Shown piece by piece: positions 49,982 to 58,380 of a DNA stretch of 64,000 nucleotides. The stretch lies in NCBI RefSeq assembly GCF_000271405.2, contig NC_018081.1, positions 1,358,301 to 1,422,300 on the forward strand, given 5' to 3'. Both the position numbers and the translations under genes were made by a program. The DNA is from Enterococcus hirae ATCC 9790 (GTDB lineage Bacteria > Bacillota > Bacilli > Lactobacillales > Enterococcaceae). Below the pieces are notes generated by a model. It was not told where the DNA came from. It ran no database searches and saw only the letters and a program-made list of their open reading frames with translations. Each line of letters starts with the position of its first letter. The stretch's first letter is position 1.

Positions 49982-50593
49982 ATGAATTTTTTTATTAGTG
50001 ATATGCACTTTTTTCATAAAAACTTATTAGGCAAAAATGATTTTGCCCCTCGTTTATTTGCTAGTGTGGAAGAAATGAATCAGCAACTAATCAATAGCTG
50101 GAATAAAGTTGTCAAAGAAACCGATCATGTGTATCACTTAGGCGATCTGGCGATGCACCCACAATATGAAAAAGGTAGCCAAGACATACTGGAGTTGGTG
50201 CAACAACTCAATGGGACAATCCATTTGATCAAGGGGAACCATGACAGCCGTGCTTTTTTCAGGTATTTAGAAAAACATGATCCAGGAAACAAGGTTGGTT
50301 CAAAAAAGTTTTATTTTTATGATGTCGGAACTATCATCAAATTCAATCATCAGCAATACTATTTGACTCATTATCCAATGTTGCTGGGATCAAACGATAG
50401 TATCTGTAATCTTCATGGACATATCCATCATTATAGTGTACCGATCGGTAATGATGTGAATGTCGGTGTAGATGCGCCAGAAAGAGAACTGTTGAAAGTG
50501 CAACAACCCTTTGGCACACCGTTATCAGAAGATGACATTGAAGAAATTTACGAAGCCAAACAACAAGAATTAGCACGTCTTCAACAAAAATAA
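49982..50593 (+). CDS. Metallophosphoesterase
   Basis: This 203-residue calcineurin-like phosphoesterase has all metal-binding motifs: ISDMHFFH (Asp7, His9), YHLGDLAMH, KGNHD, LTHYPM and LHGHIHH. The short form resembles phage-type and YfcE-like enzymes that cleave phosphomonoesters or diesters. Substrate unknown. AAGGGG precedes the ATG. A strong terminator follows. Confidence 0.88.
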   Translation: MNFFISDMHFFHKNLLGKNDFAPRLFASVEEMNQQLINSWNKVVKETDHVYHLGDLAMHPQYEKGSQDILELVQQLNGTIHLIKGNHDSRAFFRYLEKHDPGNKVGSKKFYFYDVGTIIKFNHQQYYLTHYPMLLGSNDSICNLHGHIHHYSVPIGNDVNVGVDAPERELLKVQQPFGTPLSEDDIEEIYEAKQQELARLQQK

Positions 50594-50712: not shown

Positions 50713-52656
50713 TTATAAAATGCAATAGACATATTGACCATTGTCATTATACCCTTTAGCGACTGTGGCGGTACCTTGATTTAGTTTGCTCACGTCTTGC
50801 GCGATATCTTTTGAATAAACGATCAAAGTTTTTTCTGTCGTATGTTGATTCAACCAATCGATCCCGTAATCAACAGTTTGGTTCTTGATGATATTGTTGT
50901 AATATTTGCCATATTTTTCTTTAGCTTCTGCGGTCATATGGTAATCATAATTCAGACCGTAGCCATTTCGGTAAGCGACGGCGGTTGAAAAAGAACCATG
51001 GAATCGCAAATACGTCGCATAACGATAGGTGCCATTTTCTAGTTTAACTAAGGCGTAAAAATGATTGTAGAAATAATACCAGCCACCCGCCATTTTATTA
51101 TGAGCAACATCGGCATTTAAAGGATTGGGGTTGCTCAAGTTATATAGTTCATAGATCGACAAGTTCTCCGTATAATCAAATCGTTGTTGAGTAAAAGCCG
51201 GTGGCGTATGAATGATTTGATTGACTTGATACCCTTTGATTGGGTGGGCTTTTTTATCGATCTTCGTATAACTCGGATTGTAACTTAAGTGATTGAAATC
51301 AGTCGTGATATCTGAAGAATAGACGATCTCGAAGGAACAGTGTGTGTAGGTATTGATCCAGTTCATCACATAGTTTGGGATGTCTTCGGTCGCAATCATT
51401 TTTGGAATCACCGGGATTTTGGGATCTGCATATTTTTGTTCGGCTTCTTTAGTTAACTGGAAGTTGGCAAAAGCATTTAATTGCGCCACCACTTTCCCAA
51501 AAACATTACGACCTAAAGTTAATTCCGTGCTTCGGTAAGGTTTCTGGGTGTTTTGGTCGATGGCGATGAAGTAATAGTCATTTCTTAGGTTGTATATATT
51601 TGAATTGGATCTGAAAGTAAAGTCGGCTACTTTTTCATCGGGTCCTCCGATTGGTGAGCTAATAACATTTTGCAAGTAATATTGATAATCTACAAAGGAA
51701 GGGCTGGTTTTTTCAACTTTATCCGAACGTAAGATATCATTTGGTGTTACACCAGGTTCATTAAGTAAATCATCAGTTTCTAAATCAATCCCTTGAAAAT
51801 TAGGATAATATTCTGGGGTTCTATCATCAATTCTACCATCTGGGGTCGCATTCATGTAAGCAGCCCAAACAAGTGTGGAACAATACCAATTTTCTCTGGA
51901 AGATAAACGATTCTTATGTTGAAGAAAATCTATTGATATATGATAAGGCTTGCCTAATTGACTGCGCATAAATTGAATGGCTGCATTTTTTTGCAAAGCA
52001 GTAGCTTCCGGGACTCGTAAAATTGTTGCTTCAGTATAATCAAATCGTTGATCATCTAATACTCCATAGACCACTCCACCTGCCTTATCTGGAAGATCAT
52101 CACTTTTACTAGTCGCTTCGATAGTTCTAATATATCGGGAAGTTTCTGCTTTCCCATTAATCATATGGGTTTCTTCATAAATTCCTTCGACAATCATCAC
52201 ATGATGAAGAAAGTAGGGAGTTGCTGGGACTTCAGCCCGATTTTTCTCAAAAATAATGTCCCCTGGTTGCACGGTATTCAATAAATCATAGGTTCCGTAA
52301 GTTGGCTTTTCTTCAAAAGTAATATTGTCTAATGAATTGCCGATATTAAAGGACCACAACGGAGCAATTTTCGCTAAACGTTCTGCTTCTGCTGGTAAAT
52401 ATTGGTCGTTGACGGATTGCAGATACTCTTTTAATTGGTCTTCGTCTGACAAGGTATCTTTCAAGGTGGTTTGCTGATAATAATTAGCGGTGAATTCTTC
52501 AAAGGTTTGATCAAAGGAAGCGTATTCATTTTTGAAAAAATCATAGTATTCAGTCAGTTGTTCATCAGTTGTGGTATCGCCATGGGCGTCGGTGACAGGA
52601 ACAGCAAACAAAAGTGTCCATAAAAAGGTGACAATAAAAAATAATTTAAATTTCAC
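50713..52656 (-). CDS. Secreted protein with permuted papain-like (YiiX-type) domain
   Basis: This 647-residue exported protein has a signal peptide (about 1-24) and a domain (about 125-270) with the permuted NlpC/P60 order: VQPGDIIF (131-136), His151/152 in FLHHVMIVEG, Glu180 in RTIEAT and Cys259 in WYCSTLVWAAY. The C-terminal 250 residues contain two related repeats (NYVMNWINTYT...IVYSSDITTD and DYGIDWLNQHT...IVYSKDIAQD). Family members are thiol hydrolases acting on peptides or lipids. No wall anchor is seen. It is divergent from the membrane-protein array. Confidence 0.75.
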   Translation of the reverse strand: MKFKLFFIVTFLWTLLFAVPVTDAHGDTTTDEQLTEYYDFFKNEYASFDQTFEEFTANYYQQTTLKDTLSDEDQLKEYLQSVNDQYLPAEAERLAKIAPLWSFNIGNSLDNITFEEKPTYGTYDLLNTVQPGDIIFEKNRAEVPATPYFLHHVMIVEGIYEETHMINGKAETSRYIRTIEATSKSDDLPDKAGGVVYGVLDDQRFDYTEATILRVPEATALQKNAAIQFMRSQLGKPYHISIDFLQHKNRLSSRENWYCSTLVWAAYMNATPDGRIDDRTPEYYPNFQGIDLETDDLLNEPGVTPNDILRSDKVEKTSPSFVDYQYYLQNVISSPIGGPDEKVADFTFRSNSNIYNLRNDYYFIAIDQNTQKPYRSTELTLGRNVFGKVVAQLNAFANFQLTKEAEQKYADPKIPVIPKMIATEDIPNYVMNWINTYTHCSFEIVYSSDITTDFNHLSYNPSYTKIDKKAHPIKGYQVNQIIHTPPAFTQQRFDYTENLSIYELYNLSNPNPLNADVAHNKMAGGWYYFYNHFYALVKLENGTYRYATYLRFHGSFSTAVAYRNGYGLNYDYHMTAEAKEKYGKYYNNIIKNQTVDYGIDWLNQHTTEKTLIVYSKDIAQDVSKLNQGTATVAKGYNDNGQYVYCIL

Positions 52657-53127
52657 GGGTATTCCTCCTAATTTTTATGATAAAATAATAACATATGAAA
52701 AATAATCTAGCATCTATAAAAACTTGTTATTTTTGTTTTTTATTGACGTGAAATACGAAGACATAACAGCTAGAATGGAATAAATTAAAATAAGATTGTA
52801 AGCGTTGTTATTTTGTTTTTATGATAAATACAGAGTATTTTTGTTGTTTTTTTAGCTTTTATTTAGGGTTTTATAGAAGGGGGTAATAAAAAAAGTGTAA
52901 CCTAGTTAATGTGTATAATGATTATTTGTTATTAAATTTTAGGTTTTATTTAATTTAAGATAACATTTTTTAAACAAATAAGTTTAACCTTTTTGCTGAA
53001 TCTAGATTTTGTAATCGATTATTTCTAGAAAAAATGGTAAAAGGGTAGTTTTTTAATAAATGTTTTTTTCACAGATTATGATAATTCTATTTTACTTTGT
53101 TCATTAATATAAAAGGAGAAGATGAGA
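52657..53127. other. AT-rich divergent intergenic region
   Basis: About 470 bases with many T tracts and no credible gene. It must contain promoters for both the secreted hydrolase and the membrane-protein array. I see no clear operator or -35/-10 pair that I would defend. Confidence 0.4.
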
Positions 53128-53292
53128 ATGAAGGCTTATCTAGTTGGTTTGGTGCTATCCATGTCAGTGTCTCTTGGGTGTGTGATAGCGCTTTACATGT
53201 ATTATCTTGTTCTTAAAACTTTGGTTCCGTTCTTTCTTATCATGGTGTCAGGATTGATCGGTCTATTTTTTGCTACATTTTTAAAAAATTAG
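53128..53292 (+). CDS. Short C-module membrane protein of the array
   Basis: This 54-residue protein has two spans. Its sequence (YLVGLVLSMSVSLGCVIALY and FFLIMVSGLIGLFFATFLKN) parallels the C-module of the longer array proteins but ends before the LLGINYFFATYFH segment. ATG 53128 has AAGGAG at 53113-53118; an earlier in-frame ATG at 53122 is too close to it. It is the first gene of the array. Function unknown. Confidence 0.55.
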   Translation: MKAYLVGLVLSMSVSLGCVIALYMYYLVLKTLVPFFLIMVSGLIGLFFATFLKN

Positions 53293-53320
53293 TTAGGAAA
53301 ATAAAAAAGGAGTGGTACAA

Positions 53321-53941
53321 ATGCTATCGCTAGACAGTAAAACGTGTATAAAGGTTTCAAGAAATTTCTTAATCGGTAGTTTTTTCTTAATGATGTTGAT
53401 GATTGTTGGTTTGCTTGGTAAAGTTAATGGATTTATTCCGTTAAGTGATCTTCCAGAAGGAAGTCTGATGATTTTCTATTATCTTAGCTGTTTGCTCAGT
53501 GGTCTCAGTTTGATTTTTTCTACAGGTACGCATTCAAAAATTTTAAAACGGACAGCGGCGATTATTCATTTTAGTAGTGTTTATTGGTTTTCTCTCTTTA
53601 TTTTTGCTTTTCTTTTCCATGTACTTTTTTTAATCGTTCTTTATTTGTTCCTAGCTATCGTTTTACTGACAGCAAGCAAGCAGAAATGGCTAGCGATCAC
53701 TTTCTTCGGGATACCGATGATTATTTCAATTGGCTTTTTTATCAAGCTCAATTACGAACTAATCCTTTATGGGGGGGAATGGTCATGGGACACCATTGGA
53801 TACATAGTCATTCTTCATTTATCAGGTTTAAGTGGTCTGATTCTTTCAACGCAACTCGATAAGGGAAAAGCCAAGTGGATACTTTTGGGTATTAATTATT
53901 TATTTGCAACTTATTACCATATCTACATCTTTCTTCAGTGA
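53321..53941 (+). CDS. Array membrane protein, fused N- and C-modules
   Basis: This 206-residue protein has about six spans. Order: the SLDSKTC start, the N-module segment CLLSGLSLIFSTGTHSKILKR, a central hydrophobic pair, then the C-module FFGIPMIISIGFF, GLSGLILSTQL, and the end WILLGINYLFATYYH. AAAAGGAG precedes ATG 53321; the GTG at 53312 is within that site. It is the clearest undivided member of the family. No charged catalytic residues are apparent, and I assign no function. Confidence 0.7.
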   Translation: MLSLDSKTCIKVSRNFLIGSFFLMMLMIVGLLGKVNGFIPLSDLPEGSLMIFYYLSCLLSGLSLIFSTGTHSKILKRTAAIIHFSSVYWFSLFIFAFLFHVLFLIVLYLFLAIVLLTASKQKWLAITFFGIPMIISIGFFIKLNYELILYGGEWSWDTIGYIVILHLSGLSGLILSTQLDKGKAKWILLGINYLFATYYHIYIFLQ

Positions 53942-54027
53942 GACGTCTTACATACATATCGAGTACTGGAAAGGGAAGTGGCTTGCTAGAATATAAAAAG
54001 GTTTTTTGTTAGAAAGGAGTAGTGTGG

Positions 54028-54951
54028 ATGTTGTCGCTAACAAGTAAGACCTGTACGAAGTATTCCATGATTTTCTTCGTCTGTAGCATTTTTCTAGGTA
54101 CATTATTAGTAATGAGGGGCTCTGTTGGGATAATTGTGAAATCTTTTCACAATCTTTCAGAAGTAAGTTTAGTGTTAATCTATTGTCTTTGCTTTTTACT
54201 CAGTGGACTTAGTTTGTTGTTTTCTACCGGAGTGTATGCCACCCCTTTAAAAAAATGGACAGCTATCGTTCATTTTGGCTGTCTTTATTGGGTTTTATAT
54301 ATTTTTATCGGTTTTATTGGCATTCAAAGATATGATTTAATTGCCTATTTGCTACTAACAATTTGGCTACTGAAAAAAAAGGATGAGAAACGCGAGGCGA
54401 TCATTTGTTTGGGATTGCCAATGGCTTTGTCAGTCGGACTTTTTATAGAGATCAGTCTTGTGTTCATCTATTATCTTTGTTGTTTACTCAGTGGACTCAG
54501 TTTGCTTTTTTCTACTGGTGTACATTCAAAACTTTTAAAAAGATGGGCAGCTTTCATTCATTTTGCTTGTATTTTTGGAGTCGTATTTATTTTTATCGGC
54601 TTTGTTAGTATTGCAAGATTTGATTGGCTTATTGCGCTAATTGTTTATTTGCTACTATCTATCTGGTTACTGAAAACAAAAGATCAGAAACGAGTAGCGA
54701 TCATTTGTTTAGGATTACCAATGATCTTGTCAGCTGGCTTTTTTATCAGGGTCCACTACAGTTATCTTACCTCTGGGGATTATTTGCGTACGCTTGGATT
54801 TTTGATTTTACTAAGTTTGTCTGGGGTGGTTGGTCTTATTCTTGCGGCGAACCTCAAGAACGAGAATAGAAAAGTCAAGTGGGTTCTCTTAGGGATCAAT
54901 TATTTTTTTGCAACCTATTTCCATATCGTCGTTTGGATTTTTGGTCTATAA
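54028..54951 (+). CDS. Array membrane protein with internal 96-residue duplication
   Basis: This 307-residue protein has about nine spans. It has the same layout as the preceding gene (SLTSKTC start, LLGINYFFATYFH end) but its central part is present twice: residues 47-142 (54166-54453) and 143-238 (54454-54741), in exact register. Paired segments include LLSGLSLLFSTGVYA and LLSGLSLLFSTGVHS, and AIICLGLPMALSVG and AIICLGLPMILSAG. Its ribosome site AAAGGAG fits ATG 54028. The duplication looks recent, since the DNA copies are still similar. Function unknown. Confidence 0.7.
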   Translation: MLSLTSKTCTKYSMIFFVCSIFLGTLLVMRGSVGIIVKSFHNLSEVSLVLIYCLCFLLSGLSLLFSTGVYATPLKKWTAIVHFGCLYWVLYIFIGFIGIQRYDLIAYLLLTIWLLKKKDEKREAIICLGLPMALSVGLFIEISLVFIYYLCCLLSGLSLLFSTGVHSKLLKRWAAFIHFACIFGVVFIFIGFVSIARFDWLIALIVYLLLSIWLLKTKDQKRVAIICLGLPMILSAGFFIRVHYSYLTSGDYLRTLGFLILLSLSGVVGLILAANLKNENRKVKWVLLGINYFFATYFHIVVWIFGL

Positions 54952-55049
54952 CTATCAGGTATTTGACAAAGGCAAGTGTTTAGGAGAGATGAGTATTCTT
55001 ATTAAAAATACTAAAAAATGTGTTTGAAGAATGAAAAGGAGAGAAGAAA

Positions 55050-55334
55050 ATGATCCCATTAAAAAGTAAAACCTGTACCATCATTTCATTTGTTTTGTTA
55101 GCGTTATCTTTTAGTGTTGCTTATGTTGGCTATATCCAAACAGATGAGCTTAATTTTCTATTGTTAGTGAGGATTACGTGTTGGTTATTAGGTGGCGCTA
55201 GCCTTTTCTTTGCTACCAAGATCAAATCTAATTATCTAAAAATAGTAGTGATCCTTCTAAATTTTATCAGTCTCTATAATTGGCTGTATAGCTGGCTTGA
55301 TAACTGGTTTGATATTTGGCGAAGATTTAATTGA
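55050..55334 (+). CDS. Array membrane protein, N-module only
   Basis: This 94-residue protein has two to three spans. It keeps the KSKTC start and CWLLGGASLFFATKIKSNYLK but ends with RRFN before any C-module. The following gene supplies a C-module, so the two together correspond to one 206-residue member split in two. A good AAAAGGAG site. Function unknown. Confidence 0.65.
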   Translation: MIPLKSKTCTIISFVLLALSFSVAYVGYIQTDELNFLLLVRITCWLLGGASLFFATKIKSNYLKIVVILLNFISLYNWLYSWLDNWFDIWRRFN

Positions 55335-55373
55335 ATCGGTTTGGCATTTTTAAAAATTATTGAAGGAGAAAAG

Positions 55374-55643
55374 ATGAAAAAAATAGTTGACCATAAAGGG
55401 CTATGTCTTGCTATGATTCTATCGACTAGTTGTTTCCTAACGCTGTACCATATTTATGATTTTTACTTAGATATCGAAGGGTTATTTTTAGAATTATTGA
55501 TGATTATTCTTGGTATTACAGGAATTTACTTATCAATGAAGATCCGACAGACACGTTGGCGATGGTTCTTATTAGGGATCAATTACTTCTTTGCTACTTA
55601 TTTTCACGTGGTCTTTCTGCTCTACATAATTTTTGATTTATAA
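55374..55643 (+). CDS. Array membrane protein, C-module only
   Basis: This 89-residue protein has about three spans. It contains LCLAMILSTSCFL, a LGITGIYLS segment and the family end FLLGINYFFATYFHVV. ATG 55374 follows GAAGGAG. It lies 39 bases after the N-module gene and is probably its partner subunit. Confidence 0.65.
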   Translation: MKKIVDHKGLCLAMILSTSCFLTLYHIYDFYLDIEGLFLELLMIILGITGIYLSMKIRQTRWRWFLLGINYFFATYFHVVFLLYIIFDL

Positions 55644-55753
55644 GGATAAATTGACGAATGAAAACGGTTGAAATGGATCAACTGTTTGTATAAAAAGTGA
55701 GAAAAATAAATGTAAACGAAAAAAGTCTAGACGATAAAAAAGGAGATGTATGA

Positions 55754-55986
55754 ATGTTTCTAGAAAAAAGTAAAACCTGTATGATTGTTTCGTTAAGTTT
55801 ATTAGGCATTTGTATTATTTTAATTGCTATGCCCGTCGTTAGAAAAGAACAAGCAATATGGTTGGTCTTATTCTTGTTGCACAACTCGAGGATGGAAAAA
55901 TCAAGTGTGCATTAGTAGGCATTAGTTACTTCTTTGCTACTTATTTTCACGTGGTTCTTTTGATTAACGAAATTTTTTGGCTATAA
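55754..55986 (+). pseudogene. Internally deleted array member
   Basis: The frame from ATG 55754 has the EKSKTC N-module start and stops at 55915 after about 53 residues. A second frame overlapping it ends at 55986 with IKCALVGISYFFATYFHVV. The N-terminal start and the C-terminal end are therefore joined across a deletion of the middle with loss of frame. A ribosome site (AAAGGAG) remains. Confidence 0.65.
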
Positions 55987-56000
55987 GGAATAAGTTAGGA

Positions 56001-56078
56001 GTGGGGAAAAAGCAAAAAATTAATTGGCTAACAGGTAGTAATTAGTTCTTCACCACCTACTTTAAGCAATTTATTAAT
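56001..56078 (+). pseudogene. C-module remnant with in-frame stop
   Basis: The frame from 56001 reads KKQKINWLTGSN, a TAG at 56043-56045, then FFTTYF, aligning with the RKVKWVLLGINYFFATYF end of the family. No start codon or upstream part is present. Confidence 0.5.
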
Positions 56079-56301
56079 AGAAGGCTATATTTTTTAGGAA
56101 TATTCCTTGGTTTTATTATGCTTATTGTACAAGATACAACGTTGATTTTCTTATGCGATCGATTGTTGCTTGTTGGAGATGGAGTAGAGGGAGCTTGCTT
56201 TTTTTGAAAGTATTGCTTCTCAAGGATTAAAAAGATTAGTGATTATACTTAATCTTATTTGTATCTATGGTTGGATTTGGCTTTATTGTCATAGCGGATG
56301 A
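56079..56301 (+). pseudogene. N-module remnant with T7 frameshift
   Basis: LGIFLGFIMLIVQDTTLIFL followed by a stop at a T7 run (about 56199), then in another frame SIASQGLKRLVIILNLICIY. This aligns with the N-module proteins at 55050 and 56640. No start codon is evident. The end overlaps the ribosome site of the next gene. Confidence 0.5.
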
Positions 56302-56314
56302 AAGGAGGAAAAAA

Positions 56315-56602
56315 GTGAATAAAAAATTTTATTTAATATGTCTAGGTTTGTCTATGTTTTGGTCAATTAGTAGCTTAGTATGTGTGCATTTTTATTATGG
56401 AGTAAATAGCCCCCAAGGACTGTTTTTAATCATGAGTATGATTATACCTGGAATAATTGGGCTCTACTGCTCCACCAAGGTTAGCCATCAAAAAATAAGA
56501 GGGATCTTACTTTTTACCAACTATCTATTTTTTACATATTTCAATTTTATGCAACTTATGGAAATTATAGGTTATTTACTTAACTTTTTACAAAACAAAT
56601 AA
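56315..56602 (+). CDS. Array membrane protein, C-module only (GTG start)
   Basis: This 95-residue protein has three spans with LICLGLSMFWSISSL, IPGIIGLYCSTKV and LLFTNYLFFTYFNF, a diverged copy of the LLGINYFFATYFH end. GTG 56315 is preceded by AAAGGAGG (56301-56308). Upstream in-frame sequence belongs to the decayed N-module. Function unknown. Confidence 0.6.
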   Translation: MNKKFYLICLGLSMFWSISSLVCVHFYYGVNSPQGLFLIMSMIIPGIIGLYCSTKVSHQKIRGILLFTNYLFFTYFNFMQLMEIIGYLLNFLQNK

Positions 56603-56639
56603 ACAAAAAACATCACTTTTATTTCAAAGGAGAAAAAAG

Positions 56640-56918
56640 ATGCCATCATTAAAATTAAAAAAAGCTACAATGCTAACATCGTTTTTGTTACTTAGTCCGA
56701 TTGTTTTGACTAGTTTGTACTTCATTCCACGTATCAACAACTATCATTACGTCTTTTTTATATTCGTGATGATGAGTTGTTGGATCATCGGAGGGGTTAA
56801 CTTGTTTTTATCCACAAAAATTGAATCCAAATTCTTAAAAAGAATCATTATTTTCCTTAACCTAATCTGTATTTTGGGCTGGCTTTTTTTGGGGGGTGAA
56901 AAAAATGATACAAATTGA
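56640..56918 (+). CDS. Array membrane protein, N-module only
   Basis: This 92-residue protein has three spans: SLKLKKATMLTSF start (the Ser-Lys-Thr-Cys motif has changed), CWIIGGVNLFLSTKIESKFLK and a LNLICILGWLFLGG end. The ribosome site is AAAGGAG. The C-module expected after it is decayed. Confidence 0.6.
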   Translation: MPSLKLKKATMLTSFLLLSPIVLTSLYFIPRINNYHYVFFIFVMMSCWIIGGVNLFLSTKIESKFLKRIIIFLNLICILGWLFLGGEKNDTN

Positions 56919-56929
56919 AAAGAAGAAAA

Positions 56930-57044
56930 ATCATTTTATTTAACGTATCAGGTATATCTTTTAACAAAGATGGTGCTATTAATCCTCAATTATTTGTTTG
57001 CTACTTATATTCTTTCCTTACGCTTATTTTCTTCATGTGGATAG
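56930..57044 (+). pseudogene. C-module remnant at the end of the array
   Basis: KMVLLILNYLFATYILSL (from 56967) aligns with KWVLLGINYFFATYFHIV, and FNVSGISFN in another frame aligns with the preceding LSLSGLIGLIL part, so a frameshift separates them. An overlapping 69-residue frame (56915-57124) in the second phase is therefore unlikely to be a real gene. Confidence 0.5.
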
Positions 57045-57243
57045 TCTTTAACTATGATCAATCGACTGAACAAAAGCAAATGATAGAAAGACGATTCCAA
57101 TTTTCTTTTTTTAAAAGTGATTAAAAGGCTATACTGATACTTTGATAAATAAGGGATGAAATTTTCAAGAATATATCGTATAATGTAAAGCACTGAAAAG
57201 TTGCGACCTTCAACTCGTAGATGATTTCAGAAAATCTAATTGA

Positions 57244-58380
<1,137 letters not shown>

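Follow-up and report, generated by a model that had tools for sequence, protein, structure and literature searches.

What does a tandem array of modular membrane-protein genes do upstream of mnmA in Enterococcus hirae ATCC 9790, and how did it arise? The array lies in a window of 64,000 nucleotides (nt; contig NC_018081.1, forward-strand positions 1,358,301 to 1,422,300; coordinates below count from the first letter of the window). It spans positions 53122-57124 on one strand, from a divergent C92-type hydrolase gene to mnmA, and holds, decayed pieces included, approximately 7 N-modules and 8 C-modules; some are joined in fused genes (206 and 307 amino acids, aa), some are split between adjacent genes (94+89 aa), and others are single or broken. 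No library searched gave a match to the family that these genes form, which occurs in a common group of enterococci. The answer that we favor, tentatively and at somewhat less than even confidence, is that they may encode paired membrane immunity proteins directed against membrane-acting antibacterial toxins, with an action like that of TsaI or ExiC/ExiD and no homology to them in the profile tests made.

Layout of the array

All array genes are on the plus strand. Based on the list of open reading frames (ORFs) and on module profiles, the array begins with a truncated C-module of 56 aa (53122..53292). Two fused genes follow: gene B (53321..53941), a 206-aa N-linker-C gene read as 3+1+3 helices from hydropathy and lengths, and gene C (54028..54951), a 307-aa gene comprising an N-module, the first helix of a C-module, a second N core and a full C-module. 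A single N-module of 94 aa (55050..55334) adjoins a single C-module of 89 aa (55374..55643); further along are a single C-module of 95 aa with a GTG start (56315..56602) and a single N-module of 92 aa (56640..56918), all four also placed by the N or C alignment. The remaining pieces are a decayed pair in which the start of N and the end of C are not in the same frame (55754..55986), and remnants of the third-helix region of an N-module (56188..56298, from profiles) and of a C-module (56919..57041). The conserved right flank is mnmA (57259..58380, plus strand), which is present in 15/15 genomes of the genus-level group and is 94-97% identical to the window’s copy in the other 14.

Single-module profiles detect 6 N- and 6 C-modules at ≥20 bits, three of which are truncated or remnants. 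With iterated profiles, an N piece at 55754 (expectation value, E, 5e-6) and the C piece at 56919 (E 2.7e-5) also appear, and a DNA repeat, D2, reveals the additional first helix of C within the 307-aa gene. With pieces counted, the total is close to the six N- and eight C-modules proposed in an earlier note made from the letters alone; the ORFs, translations and lengths given there (206, 307, 94 and 89 aa) and the fused, split, single and decayed forms were confirmed, and ribosome-site-like AAGGAG/GGAG runs are visible upstream of the intact genes, in agreement with the note. That note placed the array between DUF1831 and mnmA. The mnmA flank holds; the gene on the far left side, which we take to be DUF1831, is not adjacent, being separated from the array by a 260-aa gene on the opposite strand, a metallophosphatase gene (49982-50593) and the 647-aa C92-type gene. 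A promoter scan gave 19 promoter-like sites vs. 21.7 in shuffled sequences, and a scan for terminators gave none.

Gene C is a fused gene in which approximately 100 codons are internally duplicated in frame; it has two N cores and one full C-module, and the first helix of another C marks the joint. Its two units share the DNA repeats D1, at 77% across 179 nt, and D2, at 81% across 109 nt, as compared with 61-63% for the repeats against the 206-aa gene. When the 307-aa protein was used to query the whole genome (2.86 Mb, two contigs), all seven matches up to E 10 were inside the array.

Two similar module types

Alignments of 11 single N-modules and 11 single C-modules define the motifs CW..(S/G)G.SLFFST.I....LK......N for N and PG..G.YFSTKI.....KW.LL..NY.FAT for C. 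Each contains a conserved small-residue motif (SGxS in N, PGxxG in C), and an Asn in helix 3 is invariant in both sets. A profile-profile comparison of single N with single C gave a score of 40.3 (probability 93%, 68 columns, 36 after realignment), vs. 15.3 with reversed C columns and at most 12.5 in 20 column shuffles; the earlier note had named an N-C similarity no better than that of random membrane helices as fatal to its interpretation, and the similarity is higher than random columns produce. The halves of the fused proteins strongly match their own single counterparts (scores of 108 and 120). Across types the scores are 25.7 (N singles vs. fused C), 19.8 (C singles vs. fused N) and 16.3 (fused N vs. 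fused C). The two module types appear to descend from one three-helix module of roughly 85 aa, a common origin that is seen through the single modules because cross-type comparison of the fused halves is weaker, with the last two scores near the control level.

Predicted topology and the linker

Both modules have Lys/Arg ahead of helix 1 and again in the loop that connects helices 2 and 3, and acidic residues in the helix 1-2 loop, which are clear in C and weak in N (some Lys/Arg occur there too). By the positive-inside rule this suggests that N and C are both N-in/C-out; two halves of that orientation cannot be joined directly. In all 24 fused rows (some of them near-identical), 55-60 residues separate the invariant Lys of the N loop from the invariant Pro of C. 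In split genes, the N protein continues for 18-30 residues past this Lys (11/11) and the C protein starts 11-13 residues ahead of the conserved helix-1 Met (11/11). Relative to typical split genes, the fused genes have a surplus of approximately 20-25 residues, smaller relative to the longest split genes, and the stretch is hydrophobic. We infer that it would form a linker helix keeping the halves parallel, in a 3+1+3 layout.

SWEET transporters consist of two parallel three-helix modules and a linker helix (3+1+3), and SemiSWEETs are single modules with a positive loop between helices 1 and 2. The array proteins could accordingly be small-solute carriers or channels, SWEET-like pairs and fusions that transport a small molecule, with the array tuning dosage or substrate range. 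The 3+1+3 layout, the N-C similarity and the invariant Asn of helix 3 are in line with this idea, as are scattered sub-threshold matches to parts of transporters (to MFS_1 with E 0.0042 and 16.5 bits, below a cut-off of 33.4, and to MalF_N_TM with E 0.019, in one of 11 C singles). Among the seven proteins of the window, the 11 C singles and the 24 fused rows, however, no transporter profile was matched over its cut-off and the MtN3/PQ-loop (SWEET/SemiSWEET) profiles gave no match; moreover, the positive loop is between helices 2 and 3, no metabolic operon adjoins the array, and its copy number and decay would be unusual for a carrier. We regard a transport function as quite unlikely.

Distribution and copy number

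Strong matches are confined to one genus-level group of Enterococcus, in which 10 of 15 genomes carry modules near mnmA. The named genomes are E. lactis, E. durans, Enterococcus sp. ZJ1622 and a strain labelled E. faecalis 13-SD-W-01; the source names of database homologues add E. mundtii, E. villorum and E. faecium, and E. hirae is the commonest source name among the database proteins 91-100% identical to the 206-aa protein, accounting for most of those that have one. Among 105 genomes of the family, the C profile (E 0.001) matches 12, these 10 plus G094 (another genus; one intact protein, E 7e-8) and G089 (a frame-broken match, E 5e-4). The N profile was run at E 0.01 on a sample of 395 genomes from the order and matches 17, nine in the genus and eight outside (E 0.002-0.01, seven with internal stops). 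G094, G089 and these eight were not counted as family members, nor were weak matches elsewhere within the genus (G009:C52, E 0.006; G011:C1:2070539, E 0.007). The G094 protein (L073 1453-1749), the sole intact C-profile match outside the genus, is a 98-aa small membrane protein encoded after a phosphotransferase system (PTS) IIA-like gene, and could be a distant relative.

The array is upstream of mnmA in 9/10 carriers. In the exception, G003, a split pair is approximately 3 kilobases (kb) upstream of mnmA, beyond the metallophosphatase gene, and one fused gene is just downstream. Counting modules that score ≥20 bits, the order is CNCNNCNCCNCN in the E. hirae genome, CCNCNCNNCNCNCNNC in G006 and G007, CNCNCNCNC in G011, NCNCNCNCNCC in G013, CNNCNC in G002, NCNC in G003 and G005, NNC in G009 and NC in G014. 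The comparison across Enterococcus that the earlier note had proposed thus shows copy number ranging from none in 5/15 genomes through one pair (G014) to 16 modules (G006 and G007). Each of the 10 arrays has at least one N adjoining a C, and the types mainly alternate. Three of the five array-free genomes (G001, G010 and G012) have the metallophosphatase gene directly before mnmA; in G004 this gene is on the other strand, and in G008 DUF1831 takes that place.

Turnover and selection

In midpoint-rooted trees of 39 N- and 40 C-modules, interpreted without support values, the nearest neighbour comes from the same genome in 7/39 and 5/40 cases, respectively, since orthologues in G006, G007 and G011 are almost identical. 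E. hirae, G013 and G002 have fused copies that cluster together. Recombination is recorded by a database protein, P0107 (5 contigs), whose residues 1-64 equal residues 1-64 of gene B and whose residues 57-212 equal residues 152-307 of gene C bar one residue; this is the pattern expected from a crossover of genes B and C in the helix-2 block. Broken copies are present in the window, G009, G011 and G013. Repeated local duplication with decay, as the earlier note described it, is therefore borne out by the range from one pair to 16 modules, by the crossover allele and by the broken copies.

Selection was assessed from the ratio of replacement to silent changes (pN/pS) between G006 and G007, whose arrays are the most alike, using 14 genes at the same positions (one start-truncated N gene was left out) and mnmA. 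Pooled pN/pS was 0.27 for the array genes (C, 0.46; N, 0.21; fused, 0.10) vs. 0.008 for mnmA, approximately 30-fold laxer but still purifying, and all 14 genes are open in both genomes. Only one of the 14, a C gene, exceeded 1, on five changes. Between G006 and G011, four array ORFs gave a pooled ratio of 0.46; two of them are only 58-61% identical and one is a broken gene. One C gene among these four, not the one that exceeded 1 between G006 and G007, has two silent and 14 replacement changes (ratio, 1.91). The array genes are thus mostly maintained and fast-evolving, mainly under purifying selection. The diversifying selection that the earlier note had supposed is not established by a pooled ratio of 0.27 with 1/14 genes above 1, yet the G006-G011 C gene makes positive selection on single C genes possible. 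Among 99 sequences of the gene B type (98 database proteins at 91-100% identity and the window’s), helix 2 and the helix 6-7 loop are without sites having ≥2% minor residues, and the most variable regions on average are the N-terminal stretch (5/13 sites) and the outer loop of the C half (4/18).

These results bear on whether the array is largely non-adaptive, the product of a site prone to recombination where the gene of a small envelope or stress protein was duplicated in tandem and the copies slowly decay. Its broken copies, and the fact that 5/15 genomes of the genus live without it, would fit such an origin; the open state of the 14 same-position genes, their pooled ratio and the retained alternation of both module types argue against it, and we consider it improbable.

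Neighbouring genes

The gene divergent from the array (50713..52656, minus strand) encodes a 647-aa secreted protein with a C92 domain (YaeF/YiiX-type permuted papain-like; PF05708, E 2.8e-9). At E 1e-20 it is found in 8/105 genomes of the family, all eight array-bearing and with the gene at the same site (one-sided Fisher p = 0.007 within the genus). Five genomes have it open over almost its full length, and G002, G009 and G014 retain no more than pieces of it; no match was found at this threshold in the array-bearing G003 and G006. The gene and the array look like one island whose parts erode independently. A polymorphic-toxin reading of the C92 gene was rejected, as it has no variable tip and its lowest regional identity, in the middle region and with the signal peptide excluded, is 45%.

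The co-occurrence raises the possibility that the array is the partner of this secreted hydrolase, protecting the producer or helping deployment, as variable tipC sets do for the secreted lipid II phosphatase TelC. Physical linkage alone predicts such co-occurrence, though, and the absence of a match in two carriers, the fragments in three others and the lack of a variable toxin tip all speak against a partnership, which we judge unlikely, if less so than transport or neutral decay.

Other genes near mnmA differ among genomes. In G002 (E. durans, L048), approximately 2.8-4.4 kb upstream of mnmA, the C92 pieces end beside 138-aa and 381-aa genes that presumably encode TnpA and TnpB of an IS200/IS605-type insertion sequence element. 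In G014 (L060), an 85-aa gene and then a 105-aa gene lie 2.0-2.6 kb upstream of mnmA and approximately 1 kb upstream of the single N/C pair; we take them to be AbrB/MazE-like and RelE/ParE-like, an apparent toxin-antitoxin pair, and a 56-aa frame upstream of them recurs closer to mnmA. The mundtii-like G006 and G007 (L052 and L053) encode a 228-aa secreted acidic protein near the array (~6.3-7 kb and 7.8-8.5 kb upstream of mnmA), in which three similar repeats are discernible by eye.

Searches for known families

The seven window proteins were scanned against Pfam and NCBIfam, the 11 C singles against Pfam and PHROGs, and the 24 fused rows against Pfam and PADLOC; single modules from outside the window entered as C singles only. 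The separate-module profile searches that the earlier note had recommended recovered the modules in the array, and no scan of the window proteins, C singles or fused rows gave a match over a curated cut-off. Neither DUF443 (TsaI) nor DUF5079/DUF5080 (ExiC/ExiD) was matched in any of the three sets; for DUF443 the search extended to E 10 for the window proteins and to E 1 for the C singles and fused rows. PADLOC anti-phage defence profiles matched 0/24 fused rows at E up to 1. DUF4405 was matched by one of 11 C singles at 17.8 bits, below its curated cut-off of 26.7, and such sub-threshold matches are scattered (DUF4405, MFS_1, FTSW, MalF_N_TM, DUF7520 in 3/24, TadE in 2/24, and others), so that a known-family reading is not supported. 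“Hemolysin III” is a source label on a single villorum homologue, P0109. Searches of PDB sequences with the C-single and fused profiles returned no chain up to E 10. The array was also considered as mobile-element cargo, which was rejected: tblastn searches of the plasmid and phage collections with the 206-aa protein gave no match. A literature search aimed at the array turned up no paper, but it was narrow and does not prove absence.

Function

The earlier note named immunity, surface and host-interaction proteins as candidates. Immunity is the best inference by analogy, because several features resemble the immunity arrays of type VII secretion systems (T7SS): membrane proteins in variable tandem rows with no operon around them, restriction of strong matches to close relatives, and recombination of paralogues (PMC9484751, PMC7456083). 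ExiC/ExiD provide a precedent for a membrane immunity unit made of two proteins (PMC12744356). Nothing specific was found for surface or host interaction. From hydropathy and charge for topology, and from gene order for pairing, we infer the following mechanism. An N-type and a C-type module would sit next to each other in the cytoplasmic membrane, oriented alike, the pair being encoded by two neighbouring genes or joined by the extra linker helix. The array would store a changing set of membrane immunity proteins, in which each N/C pair may block a membrane-acting toxin from related strains, such as a bacteriocin or a type VII effector. The pair might do so by masking the helix faces with small residues through which these toxins act; the conserved small-residue motifs of the array proteins are SGxS (N) and PGxxG (C). 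Unequal crossing-over at the conserved second-helix/loop block would add, delete and recombine pairs. In a further variant, which we think a long shot, the array could act as a combinatorial shield: approximately 8 N and 8 C genes would form mixed pairs and many dimers, fusion through a linker helix would freeze a successful pair, and the lineage would display together the split, fused, internally duplicated and crossed-over steps by which a 3+1+3 membrane protein is built from parallel three-helix halves.

A link to type VII secretion has some backing from the distribution of EssC of the type VIIb system (T7SSb), which is present in 8/10 array carriers vs. 1/5 array-free genomes of the genus (one-sided Fisher p = 0.047, relatedness ignored); this co-occurrence is suggestive only. 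LXG matches at E 1e-5 occur in 4/15 genomes, all of them carriers. The E. hirae genome itself (G000, L117 5421-11698) has a compact T7SSb core that includes EssC and, presumably, small WXG-like, YukD-like and EssB-like proteins.

Several observations weigh against paired immunity. The array-bearing G002 and G003 are without EssC, the array-free G008 has it, and the LXG profile finds nothing in the E. hirae genome at E 1e-5. By eye, no effector or immunity gene was recognized beside EssC at the E. hirae T7SS locus, nor a cognate toxin gene beside the array; the Pfam, NCBIfam and PADLOC scans made matched no immunity family. The helices and the N/C pairing are based on hydropathy and gene order, and the correlation of module distances does not single out an N-then-C unit (r = 0.74, vs. 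0.70 for C-then-N, nearly as high); since N-C and C-N neighbours both correlate, this definition of a pair unit was rejected. Of the N-C alignment, hhalign trusts 36 columns, which surround helix 2 with its loop; two cross-type scores, C singles with fused N and fused N with fused C, are near the control level. As the toxin partner was not found, our confidence in paired immunity is below one half.

If the immunity reading is true, it points to toxins that target the membranes of enterococci and makes these toxins accessible to experiment. Whatever the function, a single chromosomal site holds stages from one module pair to fused and internally duplicated proteins, a natural series for the origin of parallel internal repeats with a linker helix in membrane proteins.

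Comparison with known systems

Like SWEETs and SemiSWEETs, the array proteins seem to be built of three-helix modules that occur singly or joined by a linker, with hydropathy and lengths in agreement, as far as sequence can tell. They differ in lacking a sequence match, in the location of the positive loop and in occurring as multiple, decaying copies.

The T7SS immunity protein TsaI (DUF443) of Staphylococcus aureus, which neutralizes a membrane-depolarizing T7SS toxin, forms clusters of 2 to 16 membrane-protein copies, with five predicted helices, an N-out/C-in orientation and a gene downstream of the toxin gene tspA (PMC7456083, PMC9484751); no clear evidence for tsaI recombination is reported there. 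Both systems are variable tandem strings of polytopic membrane proteins. TsaI differs from the array proteins in its five helices and its adjacent toxin gene, no N/C pair is described for it, and the array has no DUF443 match.

ExiC and ExiD (DUF5079 and DUF5080) are a polytopic membrane pair, both needed for immunity to EsxX, that also occur as orphans in antitoxin islands without a toxin and, in the available text, are known within one bacterial family only (PMC12744356). As in the array, two different membrane proteins occur together and are restricted to close relatives, joint action of N and C being putative here. Each has six predicted helices, the same text describes neither arrays nor fusions (PMC12744356), and the array has no DUF5079/DUF5080 match.

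In esaG and tipC arrays, copy number and alleles shift by recombination between tandem paralogues via conserved blocks (PMC9484751). EsaG binds a nuclease domain and TipC is membrane-bound and faces outwards, so neither is a polytopic N/C pair; what they have in common with the array upstream of mnmA is the recombination of tandem paralogues through conserved blocks.

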